This document shows, piece by piece, positions 11,144 to 18,343 of a stretch of DNA of 35,573 bases. Within the stretch, counting starts at the first letter, position 1; each line of letters begins with the position of its first letter. The DNA is from Candidatus Bathyarchaeota archaeon. GTDB taxonomy: Archaea > Thermoproteota > Bathyarchaeia > Bathyarchaeales > Bathycorpusculaceae. Where the stretch lies: the NCBI GenBank assembly GCA_018396955.1, contig JAGTQI010000006.1:1-35573 (forward strand), given 5' to 3'. The position numbers and the translations under genes are program-made. Under the pieces are notes generated by a model, which was not told the origin of the DNA, searched no databases, and was given only the letters and a program-made list of their open reading frames with translations.

Positions 11144-12004
11144 ATGAAATACGATACAATTCTGGTGCTGGATTTCGGCGGACAGTATTGCCACCTCATT
11201 GGGAGACGTATTAGAGAGAATGGCGTATACTCAGAAATAGTCCCTCACAACATAAGAGTTGATGAGATAAGGCTTCTAGGAGAGAAGCTTAATGTTAAAG
11301 GATTAATTCTGTCTGGTGGTCCCGCAAGCGTTTTTGATGTGGATGCACCAAAACCTGACAGGCGCATTTTTGATTTAGGGCTGCCTGTTCTAGGCTTGTG
11401 TTATGGACATCAGCTTATAGCTCAAATTTTCGGTGGAAAAGTTGAACCAGCTAAGCGGAAAGAGTTCGGCTCAGCACATGCAGTCATAGACAAACCAGTT
11501 GGTGTTTTAAATGGCATGAGCAGAAAAGAGCGGGTTTGGATGAGTCACAGTGACACCGTCATTTCGGTTCCTTCGGAATTTGATGTTTTAGCCCACACAC
11601 AAAATTGTCCAGTCGCCGCCTTCAAACATAAGAACAAACCGATTTACGGTTTACAGTGGCATCCAGAAGTTGTCCATACGGTAAATGGCGCCAAGATGAT
11701 ACGCAACTTTATCTTTGAAGTATGCGGTTGTGTTGCCAACTGGAAGATGGAAAATGTCATAGACAAAATGATTGAAGAGGTTAAGCGGCAGGTCGACGGC
11801 GGCAAAGCCATCATAGCTCTAAGCGGAGGCATAGACTCAAGCGTAGCCACAGCCATAGCAGCTAAGGCAATAGGCGAAAAACTGACAGCAGTTTTTGTTA
11901 ACCACGGACTCATGCGAGAAAACGAGCCAGAATTTGTAAAAGACACATTCCAGAAACTCAAAATAAACCTAATTATCATGGATGCACAGGAAAGATTTTT
12001 TTGA
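11144..12004 (+). CDS. guaA: GMP synthase, N-terminal part (frame broken at T7 run)
   Basis: This 286-residue frame holds the whole class I glutamine amidotransferase domain: C86 in GLCYGHQ, H173 and E175 in QWHPEV. It also holds the start of the ATP-pyrophosphatase domain with the SGGIDSS P-loop (227-233) and [11 protein letters not shown]. It then stops at 12004 after DAQERFF, in the middle of the second domain. The normal continuation ([10 protein letters not shown]) is in the next frame. A run of seven T at 11996-12002 explains this: with six T the frame reads through to 12689 as a 514-residue GMP synthase, which converts XMP to GMP using glutamine and ATP. Start ATG 11144. Probably one gene with an indel. 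Confidence 0.93.
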
Positions 12005-12689
12005 AAGACTTAAAGGCGTAACTGACCCTGAAATGAAGAGGAAGGTTATAGGCGAAGAGTTCATCAGAGTTTTTGAAGAAGTTGCAGAAAGAGTTGGCGC
12101 AGAATACCTCATCCAAGGAACTATTTATCCGGATAGAATTGAGTCTGGATTTAGGAGGTATTCAGACAAAATCAAGACGCATCATAATGTCGCCGGGCTT
12201 CCGGCAAAAATTAGGTTTAAGAAAATCGTTGAGCCTCTAAGGGACTTGTACAAAGATGAGGTTCGTAAAGTTGCCCAAATGATCGGGCTGCCAAAAGAAA
12301 TAGTTTTTAGGCAGCCCTTTCCAGGTCCTGGACTGGCGGTGCGAGTTATTGGTGAAGTAACCAAGGAAAAGATTGAGATTGTTAGGAAGGCTGATAGAAT
12401 TGTGAAAGAGGAATTCGAGAAAAACGGCTTAAAAGAGAGATTGTGGCAGTTTTTTGCAGTTTTAACAGATACGAAATCTACTGGTGTTAAGGGTGATGCT
12501 AGGGCGTATGGCTATGTTGTTGCCATGAGGGCGGTGGAAAGTCGCGAGGCGATGACGGCGAGTTTTGCAAGAATTCCTTACAATGTTTTAGAGAAAATTT
12601 CCACCAGAATAACCAGCGAAATACCAGAGGTTGTTAGGGTGGTATACGACATCACCCATAAGCCACCAGCAACCATAGAATGGGAATGA
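11982..12689 (+). CDS. guaA: GMP synthase, C-terminal part (continuation after frameshift)
   Basis: This frame contains the rest of the ATP-pyrophosphatase domain and the dimerisation domain of GMP synthase: [35 protein letters not shown], the XMP-site [29 protein letters not shown], and the C-terminus [14 protein letters not shown]. It overlaps the upstream frame by 23 bases. Its nominal ATG (11982) is an internal Met in a different frame, not a believable start, because the residues before FFERL do not match the family. True homology begins at the T7 run. A stand-alone archaeal ATP-pyrophosphatase subunit would include the SGGIDSS loop, which lies in the first frame, so this is the tail of a single broken gene rather than a natural GuaAa/GuaAb split. 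Confidence 0.92.
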
Positions 12690-13531: not shown

Positions 13532-14617
13532 TTGAAGGCTCTGATCTTAGCTGGGGGGTTTGCAACTCGGCTTAGACCCCTAAGCTGCGCAAGGCCCAAA
13601 ATTCTATTTCCAGTTCTTAACAAGCCGCTTTTAGAGTGGACGCTTGAAAGCCTCTCAAAAAGTGGAATAGAAGAGGCGATATTGGCGGTTAATCATCAAA
13701 CGGCCTTCCACATAAAAAACTCCAAATTTTCCAAGGGTAAAATGAAAATTGCTTATTCATACGATCCTCCCAAAAAGCCCCTTGGAACAGGCGGCGCAAT
13801 AAAGAATGCTGAAGAGCTTCTAGGAAACGACAATTTTTTGGTGGTGAATGGCGACATCTTCACCAGCATAAACTACGCCGAAGTAATTAAGAGACATGAG
13901 GGAAATGATGCCACCGCAACAATAGTCCTATGCACAGTTAAAGATCCGAGCCGATACGGAGTTGCAGAACTCGGCTATAATAGTAGAATAAAGAGGTTTG
14001 TTGAGAAACCCCAGCCGGGAGAGTCTCCATCGAATCTCATAAACGCTGGAATATATGTTCTCAGCCATGAAATCTTCAGATACATTCAATATGGAAGAAG
14101 AGTTTCCCTTGAACGTGAAGTGTTCCCAAAATTGGCGGAAGAGGGCAAACTTTTTGGCTACATTTTTGATGGCTTGTGGACGGATATTGGTAAAGCTGAA
14201 GACTATTTGGAGATAAACAAAATTCTATTGGACAGTCTTCGTGGAAAACTGAAAAACGTGATAAGAGGTGGTGGACAGATAAACGAGCCAGTATTCTGCG
14301 ACGAGAGTATCACGATTAAAGAAGGCTCAACCATAGGACCATATGCTGTTCTGGGAAAAAATGTCAATGTTGGAAGAAACGTTTACATAAAAAATTCCAT
14401 AATCTTTCCAGGCGTTTTAATTTCAGATGATTCTTTTATAAATGGGGCTATAATTGGTGAAAACGTCGTTGTCGGTAGAGGGGTTAAAATTAACGGGAAC
14501 TGCGTTATAGGTGACTGTGCGGTTATAGGCAATAATGTTTCATTGGCTGAAGGGGTTTCAATCTGCCCAGCGAAAGAAATCTACCAAGACGTTTTAGAGG
14601 CAAAGTGCATTATTTAA
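13532..14617 (+). CDS. Sugar-1-phosphate nucleotidyltransferase with left-handed beta-helix tail
   Basis: A 361-residue enzyme that couples a sugar-1-phosphate to an NTP. The N-terminal domain has LILAGGFATRLRPLSCARPK (about 4-23), the PLGTGGAI and VVNGDIF metal/sugar motifs, and the FVEKPQPG lysine. The C-terminal part is hexapeptide-repeat sequence (EGSTIGPYAVLGKNVNVG, KNSIIFPGVLIS, GAIIGENVVVGRGV). Close types are GDP-mannose and GlcNAc-1-phosphate uridylyl/glucose-1-phosphate transferases of archaea; the tail might also acetylate, as in the GlmU-like ST0452, but it is shorter. The start is TTG 13532, with GGTGA (13521-13525) six bases before. It is followed after 15 bases by a GlmM-like mutase, so UDP-GlcNAc is a reasonable product. 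Confidence 0.9.
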   Translation: MKALILAGGFATRLRPLSCARPKILFPVLNKPLLEWTLESLSKSGIEEAILAVNHQTAFHIKNSKFSKGKMKIAYSYDPPKKPLGTGGAIKNAEELLGNDNFLVVNGDIFTSINYAEVIKRHEGNDATATIVLCTVKDPSRYGVAELGYNSRIKRFVEKPQPGESPSNLINAGIYVLSHEIFRYIQYGRRVSLEREVFPKLAEEGKLFGYIFDGLWTDIGKAEDYLEINKILLDSLRGKLKNVIRGGGQINEPVFCDESITIKEGSTIGPYAVLGKNVNVGRNVYIKNSIIFPGVLISDDSFINGAIIGENVVVGRGVKINGNCVIGDCAVIGNNVSLAEGVSICPAKEIYQDVLEAKCII

Positions 14618-14632
14618 AACGAGGTGAGGCTT

Positions 14633-16009
14633 ATGTTAAGCCAGAGGAGACTGTTTGGAACCAACGGAATCCGCGGGCTCGTCAACAAAGAGTTAACGCC
14701 GGAGCTTGCGATTGCCATTGGGAGTGCAATAGGCACATATCTTCATTGTGGCGATTTGCTTGTTGGATATGATGCCAGAACAAGCAGTCCCATGCTTGCA
14801 AAAGCCGTAGTATCGGGTTTAAATGCTACTGGTTGCAGTGTGCTCTTCGCTGGAATGGCGCCCACGCCAGCATTGCAATATGCCGTTAAAAAGCACAGGC
14901 TTGACGGTGGAGTAATTATAACGGCTTCCCACAACCCGCCAGAATACAACGGGATAAAAGTTTTGTGGAATGATGGAATAGAAATCGCGCGAGAACAAGA
15001 AATCGAAGTTGAAAACATATTCTTTGACAAAAAATTTCGCTACGTGGAGTGGGACAAAATAGGAAGTGTTAAAGATCTTACAGGGATTATCGAAGAATAT
15101 GTGGAGGCTATAAAAGGGCATGTGGACGTAGCCAAAATAGCCAGCAAGCATTATCATGTTGTAATTGATGCTGCAAACAGCGTTGCTGCCCTCGCTGTTC
15201 CCAAACTTCTTAGAGAACTTGGCTGTCGCGTCACAACTATAAACGCAAACATTGATGGAACATTCCCAGCTAGACCACCTGAACCCCGACCAGAAAACCT
15301 TGGAGATTTAGCCTCAACAGTCAAAGCCATGGGTGCAGATTTGGGTGTTGCTTTTGACGGGGATGCTGACCGCTCAATATTTGTTGACGAAAAAGGCGAA
15401 ATTCACTGGGGTGACAAAACCTTCGCCCTCGTCGAAAAACACTTTTTACTGCAAAATCCGGGCGAAAAAATTGTTTCGCCCATAAGTTCATCAACTTTGG
15501 TAAAGGATATAGCTGACGCCTATTGCGGCGAAATAGTCTGGACAAAGGTTGGAAGCGTCATAGTCTCCCACACAATGAAGAAGCTAGGCGCAAAACTTGG
15601 CGGAGAGGAAAACGGCGGAATCTTCTACGGGCCCCATCAGCCAGTCAGGGATGGCGCAATGGCCACAGCCCTAATTTTGGGTATAATGGCTGAAACAGGC
15701 AAGAAACTTTCAAGCCTTCTCGCCGGACTGCCTAAATATTTTATTGAGAAGGGAACTGTTGAATGTCCTGAACAACTTAAAGAAAAAGTTTTGGAAAGGC
15801 TCATTGAGCAGACAAGGGGGTTAAACATAAACACCATCGATGGAGTCAAGATTTGGTTTGAGGATAAAAGCTCCATACTTGTTAGACCAAGCGGAACAGA
15901 ACCACTATACAGGCTTTACGCAGAAGCCAAAACGAGGAGAAAAGCCCTAAGGCTTGTCCAAGACTTCATTTTAAAACTTAAAAGGATAATCAACAGCTTA
16001 AAAGTCTAA
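14633..16009 (+). CDS. glmM: Phosphoglucosamine mutase / phosphomannomutase (GlmM-like)
   Basis: A 458-residue alpha-D-phosphohexomutase with all four landmarks. The phosphoserine loop is TASHNPPEYNG (S99), the metal loop is DGDADRSIF, the sugar loop is GEENGG, and the phosphate-binding loop is RPSGTEPLYRLYAEA. The N-terminus LFGTNGIRGLVNKELTPE is typical of archaeal GlmM proteins, which interconvert glucosamine-6- and -1-phosphate; phosphomannomutase activity is possible. The chosen ATG 14633 follows GAGGTGA (14621-14627) five bases before it; the frame also has a GTG inside that motif. It follows the nucleotidyltransferase after 15 bases, fitting a UDP-GlcNAc route. Confidence 0.92.
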   Translation: MLSQRRLFGTNGIRGLVNKELTPELAIAIGSAIGTYLHCGDLLVGYDARTSSPMLAKAVVSGLNATGCSVLFAGMAPTPALQYAVKKHRLDGGVIITASHNPPEYNGIKVLWNDGIEIAREQEIEVENIFFDKKFRYVEWDKIGSVKDLTGIIEEYVEAIKGHVDVAKIASKHYHVVIDAANSVAALAVPKLLRELGCRVTTINANIDGTFPARPPEPRPENLGDLASTVKAMGADLGVAFDGDADRSIFVDEKGEIHWGDKTFALVEKHFLLQNPGEKIVSPISSSTLVKDIADAYCGEIVWTKVGSVIVSHTMKKLGAKLGGEENGGIFYGPHQPVRDGAMATALILGIMAETGKKLSSLLAGLPKYFIEKGTVECPEQLKEKVLERLIEQTRGLNINTIDGVKIWFEDKSSILVRPSGTEPLYRLYAEAKTRRKALRLVQDFILKLKRIINSLKV

Positions 16010-16046: not shown

Positions 16047-17399
16047 ATGTTGTTGACAAGATCCACAGAAACCAAAGCCTTAGAGCGTGGCGAATGGGCA
16101 GTTAGCATAGTTGGTTGTGGACGTTTAGGACTTCTCCACGCTTGTCTATTTGCCGAGGCTGGCTTTAAGGTTATATGCATTGACAGCGACCAAGCTATTA
16201 TAGAGCGTATACTAAAAGGCAAAGTTCCATTTCTAAAGCATGAAGCGGAGCCGATTCTCCGGAAATGTTTAGCGAGTGGAAGGCTAAAAGCCACCAGTGA
16301 CTTGAAAGCAGCGATGGCCCATAGCAACGTCATATTGGTTGCTACATCCGCAATTGTAGATGATAAGGGTGGGGTGGACTACTCTCCCCTAGAAAAAGCT
16401 CTAAAGTCTATAGGCTCAATTCTTCGCAGAGAAGCATTGATCATCCTAACAAGCGTTGTTGGGATAGGCGTAATAGAGGGGTTCCTCAAAGAGATTCTTG
16501 AAAACTCCTCTGGATTTAGGGCTGGATCAGACTTTTACTTAGCCTATAGTCCAATCCTTTTTCCAGAAATACAGACGCTTAATGGGTTGTCAAATTGCAG
16601 GCGGATTGTTGCTGCGTCAGATAGGGCTAGTTTGGAGATAGCATTAAACGTCATAAAATCGGTGACAAATGCTGAGGTTATTCCGGTTCAAAGCTTGAAG
16701 ATGGCCGAAGCCATCGCACTTTTTGAAGCTGCTTTTCAAAATGTTAATTCTGCACTGGCTAACGAGTTTGCCTTTCTCTGTGAGAAGCTTGGCATAGACT
16801 ACTTTGTGGCTCGCAACTTTTTAGGCTCTAACACTAACATGCATATGCAATCAACATCAACAAGTGAGGCGCTTAAAATATTGTTGGAAGAAGCTGAAAA
16901 TCTCAATGTAAAGCTCCGTATTTCAGAAGCAGCCTTAGGATTAGATGAAGAAGTCTTAAGGCATAAGGTTGAGCTGGTTCGAGATGCGCTTAAAAGCTGC
17001 GGAAAGCCATTGCGAAGAGCAAAAATTGCTCTGCTCGGGTTTTCTCAAACACCAAACACCGCAGACATCCCAAAGTATTCCGCAAAGAAAATTGTTAGTA
17101 TGCTTGAGAAAAAAGGGGTGAAATTAACACTTTACGACCCCTACACATCTTGGAAAGCCATAACAGACCTAGAACATGCGCAACCTAAAAAAAGTTTAGT
17201 AGAGGCTATTGAAGGTGCAGACTGCATAGTAATACTAGCAGCACATGAACAGCTTAAACGACTAAATTTGAGAAAGCTTAAGCTTTTAGCGAAAATGCCA
17301 GCGGCAATCGTAGACCTTGAAGGCATTTTGGACCCTGTGAAGGTTGAAGCTGAAGGCTTCATATATCGTGGTTTTGGAAGAGGAGTTTGGAAGAAATGA
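16047..17399 (+). CDS. UDP-glucose/GDP-mannose dehydrogenase family protein lacking catalytic residues
   Basis: A 450-residue protein with the three-domain order of nucleotide-sugar 6-dehydrogenases. The NAD-binding N-terminus is intact (VSIVGCGRLGLLHACLFAEAGFKVICIDSD, about 19-48). The central helical core is recognisable (LKMAEAIALFEAAFQNVNSALANEFAFLCEKLGID), as is the C-terminal UDP-binding domain (KIALLGFSQTPNTADIPKYSAKKIVSMLEKKGVKLTLYDPY). The catalytic set is missing: the usual E-x-x-K-x-x-x-N Lys and Asn appear as A224 and A228. The GGHCIP loop reads NMHMQS, putting M267 at the Cys position. ATG 16047 has GGAG eight bases upstream. The stop overlaps the next ATG (ATGA). It looks like a pseudoenzyme with retained cofactor site, possibly a regulator or partner of the downstream oxidoreductase. 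Confidence 0.85.
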   Translation: MLLTRSTETKALERGEWAVSIVGCGRLGLLHACLFAEAGFKVICIDSDQAIIERILKGKVPFLKHEAEPILRKCLASGRLKATSDLKAAMAHSNVILVATSAIVDDKGGVDYSPLEKALKSIGSILRREALIILTSVVGIGVIEGFLKEILENSSGFRAGSDFYLAYSPILFPEIQTLNGLSNCRRIVAASDRASLEIALNVIKSVTNAEVIPVQSLKMAEAIALFEAAFQNVNSALANEFAFLCEKLGIDYFVARNFLGSNTNMHMQSTSTSEALKILLEEAENLNVKLRISEAALGLDEEVLRHKVELVRDALKSCGKPLRRAKIALLGFSQTPNTADIPKYSAKKIVSMLEKKGVKLTLYDPYTSWKAITDLEHAQPKKSLVEAIEGADCIVILAAHEQLKRLNLRKLKLLAKMPAAIVDLEGILDPVKVEAEGFIYRGFGRGVWKK

Positions 17400-18343
17400 A
17401 AAAACTAGGAGTCGCTATTATAGGAGCAGGGTTCTGGGGGAAAAATCATGCAAGGGTTTTCACCGAACTGGAAGAAACGGAACTTTTAGCCGTTTGCGAC
17501 ATTGATGCTGAAAGAGCGAAGGTTGTCGCTAAACAATTTGGCGTTAAAGCCTACTCTAACACAGCGAGAATGTTGAAGAGGAAGGATATTGAGGCTGTTA
17601 GCGTCTGTACGTGGTCAACAAGCCTCGCAAAAGAGGCTCTAAAGGCGCTAAAGGCTGGAAAACATGTTCTGGTTGAGAAGCCTATGGCCGCCAACTCAAA
17701 ACAGGCGGAAGCTTTGCTGAAAACAGCGGAAAAGGAAGGCTTACAACTTTCAGTTGGGTTTTTGATGCGTTTTATTCCAGGACTTCAGTACATTAAAAAG
17801 GCTATTGAAAGTCGGGAAATGGGAGAGATTGTCTGTGCCACAGCTAAAAGGGTTTCAGAATGGCCTGAACGAATAGGTGATGTTGGAGTAGTAAAAGACT
17901 TGGCTATTCATGACATTGATGTGATGCGCTACTTGTTTAATAGCGACCCGGTGGCGGTTTACGCTAAAACTGGGAATATGAGGCATAGGAAATTTGAGGA
18001 TTATGCCCACATAATATTGACTTTCAAGCACGAGAAAAACGCGTTTATAGAGGCAAACTGGCTAACTCCCTACAAAACAAGAGTACTGGTGGTGACTGGA
18101 AGCAAGGCCATAGCAAAACTCGACTATATTACACAAGAGCTGACCATGGAAACAGCGGAAAAAACAGTCCAGCCAAGAATCCCATGGCAAGAACCCCTTA
18201 AGCTTGAGCTTCAACACTTTGCAAGATGTGTCTTAGGAAAGGAAAAACCATCTATAACTGGATGGGATGGCTTAAGGGCTCTGAAAATTGCTGAGGCCGC
18301 GCTTAAATCATCTAAAACAGGCAGACTTGTTAAACTTAAGTAG
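17396..18343 (+). CDS. Gfo/Idh/MocA family oxidoreductase
   Basis: A 315-residue NAD(P)-dependent sugar dehydrogenase homologue. It shows the Rossmann GAGFWGKNHARVF (10-22), the EKPMA motif (E94-K95-P96), VGFLMRF in the catalytic domain, and the active-site stretch VKDLAIHDIDVMRYL (K167, D168, H172, D173). All expected residues are there. Relatives of the WbpB/WlbA type oxidise C3 of UDP-GlcNAc-derived uronic acids; that substrate is plausible here because the preceding genes would make UDP-GlcNAc, but it is not proven. ATG 17396 overlaps the stop of the dehydrogenase-like gene (ATGA), so translation is probably coupled. An alternative TTG lies nine bases earlier. The gene ends 2 bases before the convergent Trm112-like gene. 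Confidence 0.92.
   Translation: MKKLGVAIIGAGFWGKNHARVFTELEETELLAVCDIDAERAKVVAKQFGVKAYSNTARMLKRKDIEAVSVCTWSTSLAKEALKALKAGKHVLVEKPMAANSKQAEALLKTAEKEGLQLSVGFLMRFIPGLQYIKKAIESREMGEIVCATAKRVSEWPERIGDVGVVKDLAIHDIDVMRYLFNSDPVAVYAKTGNMRHRKFEDYAHIILTFKHEKNAFIEANWLTPYKTRVLVVTGSKAIAKLDYITQELTMETAEKTVQPRIPWQEPLKLELQHFARCVLGKEKPSITGWDGLRALKIAEAALKSSKTGRLVKLK

Follow-up and report, generated by a model that had tools for sequence, protein, structure and literature searches.

A putative pseudoenzyme of the nucleotide-sugar dehydrogenase superfamily retained in a family of archaea

Described dehydrogenases and the homolog in the window

Residues 265-280 of human UGDH, including the catalytic Cys, wrap UDP-glucose (PMC3184952). 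The C276A variant of this enzyme still oxidizes the aldehyde intermediate and mutants of Lys220 keep residual activity (PMC3184952), so the loss of a single residue is not decisive by itself. The archaeal UDP-N-acetyl-D-mannosamine (UDP-ManNAc) dehydrogenase (4r16; NF040825) has a three-domain fold and a C-terminal FxRGxGRG tail. In the UDP-GlcNAc(3NAc)A pathway, WbpA and WbpB form a pair in which a gene of the 6-dehydrogenase type lies next to a dehydrogenase gene of the Gfo/Idh type, in a UDP-GlcNAc context (PMC10622841). GMPPA, a non-catalytic regulator of GMPPB, is a case of a dead homolog that has been retained in sugar-nucleotide metabolism, probably for regulation (PMC11228364).

The window, by which we mean the whole stretch of 35,573 nucleotides analyzed here, is archaeal to judge from the genes it carries, and may come from a member of the Bathyarchaeia. 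It contains on its forward strand a frame of 450 amino acids that starts with an ATG at position 16047 and whose stop ends at 17399; these coordinates were found to be correct. The protein scored 243.1 bits against the nucleotide-sugar dehydrogenase model TIGR03026 (cut-off 189.8) and was above the cut-off for all three Pfam domains, PF03721, PF00984 and PF03720, although the central domain was barely so (27.6 bits; cut-off 25.4). Its AlphaFold2 model represents a confident fold (pLDDT 88.4, pTM 0.85), and the top Foldseek matches to the predicted structure are nucleotide-sugar dehydrogenases (TM about 0.84-0.87). In both sequence and three-domain fold, the protein thus belongs by descent to the nucleotide-sugar dehydrogenase superfamily. 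The NAD- and UDP-binding domains that an earlier note on this DNA had seen are indeed recognizable. Selection conserves the protein although its catalytic motif is lost, and we think it fairly likely that it is a conserved pseudoenzyme, most probably a subunit that regulates or scaffolds a UDP-GlcNAc-modifying cluster without catalysis of its own.

The window protein shares the three-domain fold of the archaeal UDP-ManNAc dehydrogenase (TM 0.84-0.90, 26% identity) and has the C-terminal tail in common with it, but lacks the Cys, Lys and Asn residues and the Cys/UDP loop, and scores 180 bits against NF040825, for which the cut-off is 750. The likeness to the WbpA-WbpB pair extends to the gene pair and its context, but the 6-dehydrogenase homolog is predicted from its sequence to be inactive and there is no aminotransferase next door; one strong DegT-family gene is located elsewhere in the same genome. 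The resemblance to GMPPA is an analogy only, in that the two proteins belong to unrelated families, and while GMPPA regulates its own active paralog, the genome studied here contains no further PF03721 gene above the cut-off. We found no description of an inactive member of this dehydrogenase family in the open-access literature searched, which is not proof of absence. Annotation pipelines would label the gene as a nucleotide-sugar dehydrogenase, and thereby credit these archaea with a synthesis of UDP-uronic acids that the protein is predicted to be unable to provide.

Catalytic residues, nucleotide-sugar loop and C-terminal tail

From the fetched loci we took 132 dehydrogenase frames, which were aligned together with three solved enzymes; 51 of the sampled frames represent the window's family. 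The catalytic positions were read from alignments with the three solved enzymes and a large set of Cys-bearing homologs. The segment aemvKlmeN in 4r16 pairs with aeaiAlfeA in the window protein, which places Ala at the positions of the catalytic Lys (codon 224, 16716-16718, forward strand) and the catalytic Asn (codon 228, 16728-16730, forward strand), just as the earlier note had assigned the E-x-x-K-x-x-x-N motif to A224 and A228. Lys and Asn are found at these positions in 0 of the 51 family members, which instead have V, A, T, I, L and others at position 224 and A, I, T, V, S and others at position 228. The active-site Thr of the STxxPG motif corresponds to V137 in the window protein and is present in 15 of the 51 members. 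The Cys, Lys and Asn residues are all absent from each of the 51 sampled members, which excludes chance or sequencing error as an explanation.

The alignments revealed no GGxC motif or GGxCxP loop anywhere in the window protein, and no substitute Cys was found elsewhere in it, C245 being common also among the Cys-bearing homologs. The earlier note had read the Cys loop as NMHMQS with a Met at the Cys position; the absence of the catalytic Cys was borne out by the alignments, but the pairing of Met with Cys was not, as there is no alignable GGHCIP loop. Entropy and pLDDT values indicate that residues 253-280 (16803-16886, forward strand) are a shortened, unconserved remnant of the catalytic-Cys/nucleotide-sugar loop. 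The segment corresponding to residues 251-279 of the window protein is 29-34 residues long in the family, 34 in the early-branching Cys-less relatives described below, and mostly 36 in the Cys-bearing homologs. The mean entropy of the loop remnant is 2.43 bits in the family, where it is the most variable segment, against 0.72 bits in the early-branching relatives and 1.71 bits in the Cys-bearing homologs, and pLDDT falls below 50 at residues 262-266, a disordered stretch within the lost loop. No other segment measured in the family is as conserved as the C-terminal tail around GFIYRGFGRG (residues 436-447; 17352-17387, forward strand), whose mean entropy is 0.63 bits versus 1.99 bits in the Cys-bearing homologs. 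Judged by these profiles, conservation has moved from the loop to the C-terminal tail in the window's family.

The GxGxxG motif is intact in the window protein (GCGRLG), but only in 26 of the 51 family members and broken in the other 25, and NAD binding may not be uniformly retained in the family. G28 is conserved in 50 and D46 in 48 of the 51 members, while the Lys that is common at alignment column 335 of the canonical homologs is lost. S155, G156, K320, R324, D423 and G437 are invariant, and no new polar catalytic set is evident among the conserved columns of the family. Several catalytic residues are lost together with the Cys/UDP loop, not one residue alone as in the human UGDH mutants, and we strongly infer that the window protein is incapable of the two-step 6-oxidation of a UDP-sugar.

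Order of loss and possible remaining activities

Phylogenies were inferred with FastTree from 130 proteins and with IQ-TREE from 86 proteins, the loop, Lys, Asn and Thr columns being omitted from the latter. In both trees, the Cys changes two times in all, at the root of a large clade and separately in the lineage of L169 and L170. The Cys-less clade contains 56 rows and has a support of 97/88 in the IQ-TREE phylogeny, with a nested clade of 53 rows supported at 100/96, and it spans more than one archaeal class, since L152, L154 and L156 come from outside the class of the window. Across the trees, at least 5-6 changes are counted for the Lys and 9-10 for the Asn (5 and 9, respectively, with IQ-TREE). 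On these topologies, the Cys-less clade traces back to one loss of the Cys at its root, and the Lys and Asn residues were lost stepwise thereafter.

The early branches of the Cys-less clade (such as L031, L032, L036 and L043) likewise lack the Cys, but differ from the window protein in that they have kept the Lys, Asn and Thr residues along with a loop that reads PGIVGGH-IPKDP. In the Cys-bearing relatives from the same class the loop reads PGIGVGGHCIPxNP, so that the Cys and one Gly are deleted in the early branches. Because it is so highly conserved, the loop is probably still in use in these proteins, which may still be active in some way; together with L185, they are candidates for a two-electron, Cys-independent reaction. 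If the role of the window protein is regulatory, this would be a pseudoenzyme in a dehydrogenase family that has living intermediates of each loss step, which makes the order of events, with the nucleophile lost first and the Lys, Asn and loop afterwards, directly testable.

Two observations concern proteins outside the main clade. L169 and L170 represent a second, independent lineage without the Cys, Lys and Asn residues and are located beside a nucleotidylyltransferase; for L169, where the sequence extends far enough to see it, no Gfo gene follows. L150, a Cys-bearing relative (genome G102, contig C13, 11902-13869), carries an intein-like insert of about 190 amino acids (PF14890), which is placed exactly before the catalytic Cys, at GGH|CLPGDE...VHN|CIPQNP, so that the enzyme would be active only once spliced.

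The early branches also bear on the question of whether the window protein is still an enzyme with another chemistry, such as a single two-electron oxidation or reduction, or an isomerization, with NAD in a rebuilt active site. The loop and residues kept in these relatives look like a Cys-free active site, the human UGDH mutants retain partial reactions (PMC3184952), and G28 and D46 are conserved in the window's family. We nevertheless consider this unlikely for the window protein. Its family has lost the Lys and Asn in all 51 members and the Thr in most, shows no conservation of the loop and has a disrupted GxGxxG motif in 25 of the 51, and the conserved columns offer no evident alternative set of polar catalytic residues.

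Next in order, and also improbable, is that the protein is a ligand sensor that binds NAD(H) or a UDP-sugar and exerts allosteric control over the pathway, in the way that GMPPA regulates GMPPB. The fold and both nucleotide-binding domains are recognizable, D46, G28 and the C-terminal tail are conserved, and there is the precedent of a non-catalytic regulator in sugar-nucleotide synthesis (PMC11228364). However, the loop that wraps the UDP-sugar and the Lys at column 335 are gone, and the GxGxxG motif is intact in only 26 of the 51 members.

Retention, operon context and putative role

A search of 101 genomes, comprising the genome of the window and its relatives, gave matches in 96, and further searches were made at the class and phylum level; the surveyed genomes are spread over numerous contigs, and most have the appearance of metagenome bins. 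All 58 family genomes of at least 90% completeness contained a PF03721 match above the cut-off. A reading of the rows showed that each of them includes a match like that of the window protein (about 40-110 bits), located at the conserved locus wherever the locus search had also found that locus. About 22 of the 58 genomes have a second, stronger full-length PF03721 match (at least 140 bits). One genome (G017, contig C107, 25081-26406) encodes a second homolog with 43% identity to the window protein in addition to the conserved copy. No frameshift or internal stop was found among the family members fetched. Regulation of an active paralog was rejected as a general explanation, given that the genome of the window has no other PF03721 gene above the cut-off and only about 22 of the 58 have a second strong match.

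Over 16 pairs, for some of which dS is near saturation, dN/dS was 0.09-0.24 for the pseudo-dehydrogenase, 0.03-0.11 for the adjacent Gfo protein and 0.05-0.18 for GlmM, and the median identity to the version in the window was 46%, 75% and 73%, respectively. These values show that the pseudo-dehydrogenase is under purifying selection, yet is the fastest-evolving of the three. The family-wide losses, low dN/dS and presence in 58 of 58 genomes led us to reject sequencing error and recent decay. The intact frames, dN/dS values, presence in all 58 genomes and kept operon position also give strong support to the suggestion in the earlier note that selection acts on a non-catalytic or altered role.

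It is very unlikely that the gene is a decaying relic that stays open only through its translational coupling to Gfo. The ATGA overlap and the evolution that is faster than in Gfo and, in most pairs, than in GlmM would fit such a history, but dN/dS is well below 1, six residues are invariant, the C-terminal tail is more conserved than in the Cys-bearing homologs, the fetched members are free of frameshifts and stops, and some relatives retain the protein without Gfo. That the protein is an ordinary active dehydrogenase that has been misaligned, as its passing of the TIGR03026 cut-off might suggest, is extremely improbable and was rejected by alignment, as the comparisons with the three solved enzymes and with the Cys-bearing set agree and there is no GGxC motif.

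The recurrent gene order in the family is nucleotidylyltransferase, GlmM, pseudo-dehydrogenase, Gfo and, on the other strand, Trm5, often with glutamine synthetase and GMP synthase upstream. In the window, the first of these genes (13532-14617, forward strand) encodes a sugar-1-phosphate nucleotidylyltransferase with a left-handed beta-helix domain (archaeal GlmU-like; PF00483, 177.7 bits; the best NCBIfam models all below their cut-offs), and the second (14624-16009, forward strand) the phosphoglucosamine mutase GlmM (TIGR03990, 555.7 bits, cut-off 439); both positions are shared with the relatives. The Gfo/Idh/MocA oxidoreductase (17396-18343, forward strand) is nearest to the NCBIfam model for archaeal UDP-GlcNAc 3-dehydrogenase, NF040723, against which it scores 320.1 bits, below the equivalog cut-off of 450. 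Its frame is intact, and E97-K98-P99, D171 and H175 (alignment numbering) are invariant in the Gfo partners. The ATGA stop/start overlap with the pseudo-dehydrogenase (17396-17399, forward strand) was seen as the earlier note had described it, with both frames undamaged, and the overlap or a near-contact is kept in relatives.

In each of the 51 family members Gfo adjoins the pseudo-dehydrogenase, and the two genes usually overlap by a short stretch. Gfo is also adjacent to the Cys-bearing homologs L132, L136, L141, L148 and L155, some of which have DUF354, GlmM or a GT4 glycosyl-phosphotransferase nearby, and to the early-branching L031, L036 and L043, but not L032. The Cys-less dehydrogenases L033, L039, L040 and L044 are located beside a nucleotidylyltransferase with no adjacent Gfo found, and in L039 a gene for a GT4 glycosyl-phosphotransferase (PF00953) comes next. 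Position 76 is a Trp in 68 of the 73 Gfo proteins paired with Cys-less dehydrogenases and a Pro in 7 of 7 paired with Cys-bearing ones; as this is the single separating position and there are just 7 Cys-bearing cases, no conclusion about a change in the Gfo substrate site was drawn. An association between Lys loss and Gfo adjacency looked striking, with Gfo beside 61 of 63 proteins that have lost the Lys/Arg and 13 of 26 that keep it, but was rejected as an independent test, since it reduces to 4-5 independent pairs with no signal.

The idea that the protein binds the nucleotide-sugar for its Gfo partner, as the earlier note had proposed, is doubtful because the loop equivalent to UGDH 265-280 (PMC3184952) is lost. 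It also fits poorly with the retention of the protein without an orthologous Gfo in six genomes (G065, G072, G078, G080, G081 and G093) and with evolutionary distances that follow GlmM. Across 44 family genomes, the partial distance correlation of the pseudo-dehydrogenase with Gfo given GlmM is 0.05 (5-95% range -0.09 to 0.18), while that with GlmM given Gfo is 0.57, although this crude method is no proof of contact with GlmM. The distance correlation is thus not specific to Gfo and points to GlmM, which speaks against the Gfo link.

With moderate confidence, we assign a regulatory or scaffold role to the pseudo-dehydrogenase. Its ancestor would have been a UDP-sugar 6-dehydrogenase of the WbpA or UDP-ManNAc-dehydrogenase type, paired with a Gfo/Idh 3-dehydrogenase within a UDP-GlcNAc operon; such a WbpA-WbpB-like pair is consistent with the Cys-bearing homologs beside Gfo (pathway: PMC10622841). 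The sequences show that the catalytic Cys was the first to be lost and that the window's family then also shed the Lys, the Asn, the Thr in most members and the nucleotide-sugar loop, while the fold, the central helix and the C-terminal tail stayed under selection. The protein would be made in step with Gfo via the overlapping start and stop, and may hold or tune Gfo and/or the GlmM/nucleotidylyltransferase step through protein contact. Against such a pseudoenzyme subunit, besides the distance correlation and the six genomes without an orthologous Gfo, the faster evolution than in Gfo would also fit a partly relaxed constraint, and the largely conserved G28 and D46 leave room for another dinucleotide-dependent activity. 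More tentatively, a Cys-deleted intermediate, alive in the early branches and possibly a two-electron enzyme, could have given rise to an obligate non-catalytic subunit that governs UDP-GlcNAc modification and is near-universal in the family. This tentative reading would make it a clade-wide archaeal pseudo-dehydrogenase of stepwise origin, other dehydrogenases of the superfamily being sporadic in the family.

Further upstream in the window, a frameshift at about 11982-12004 divides the GMP synthase gene guaA (11144-12689) into two frames, whereas the relatives have a single frame, and the split represents either an assembly error or a recent mutation.
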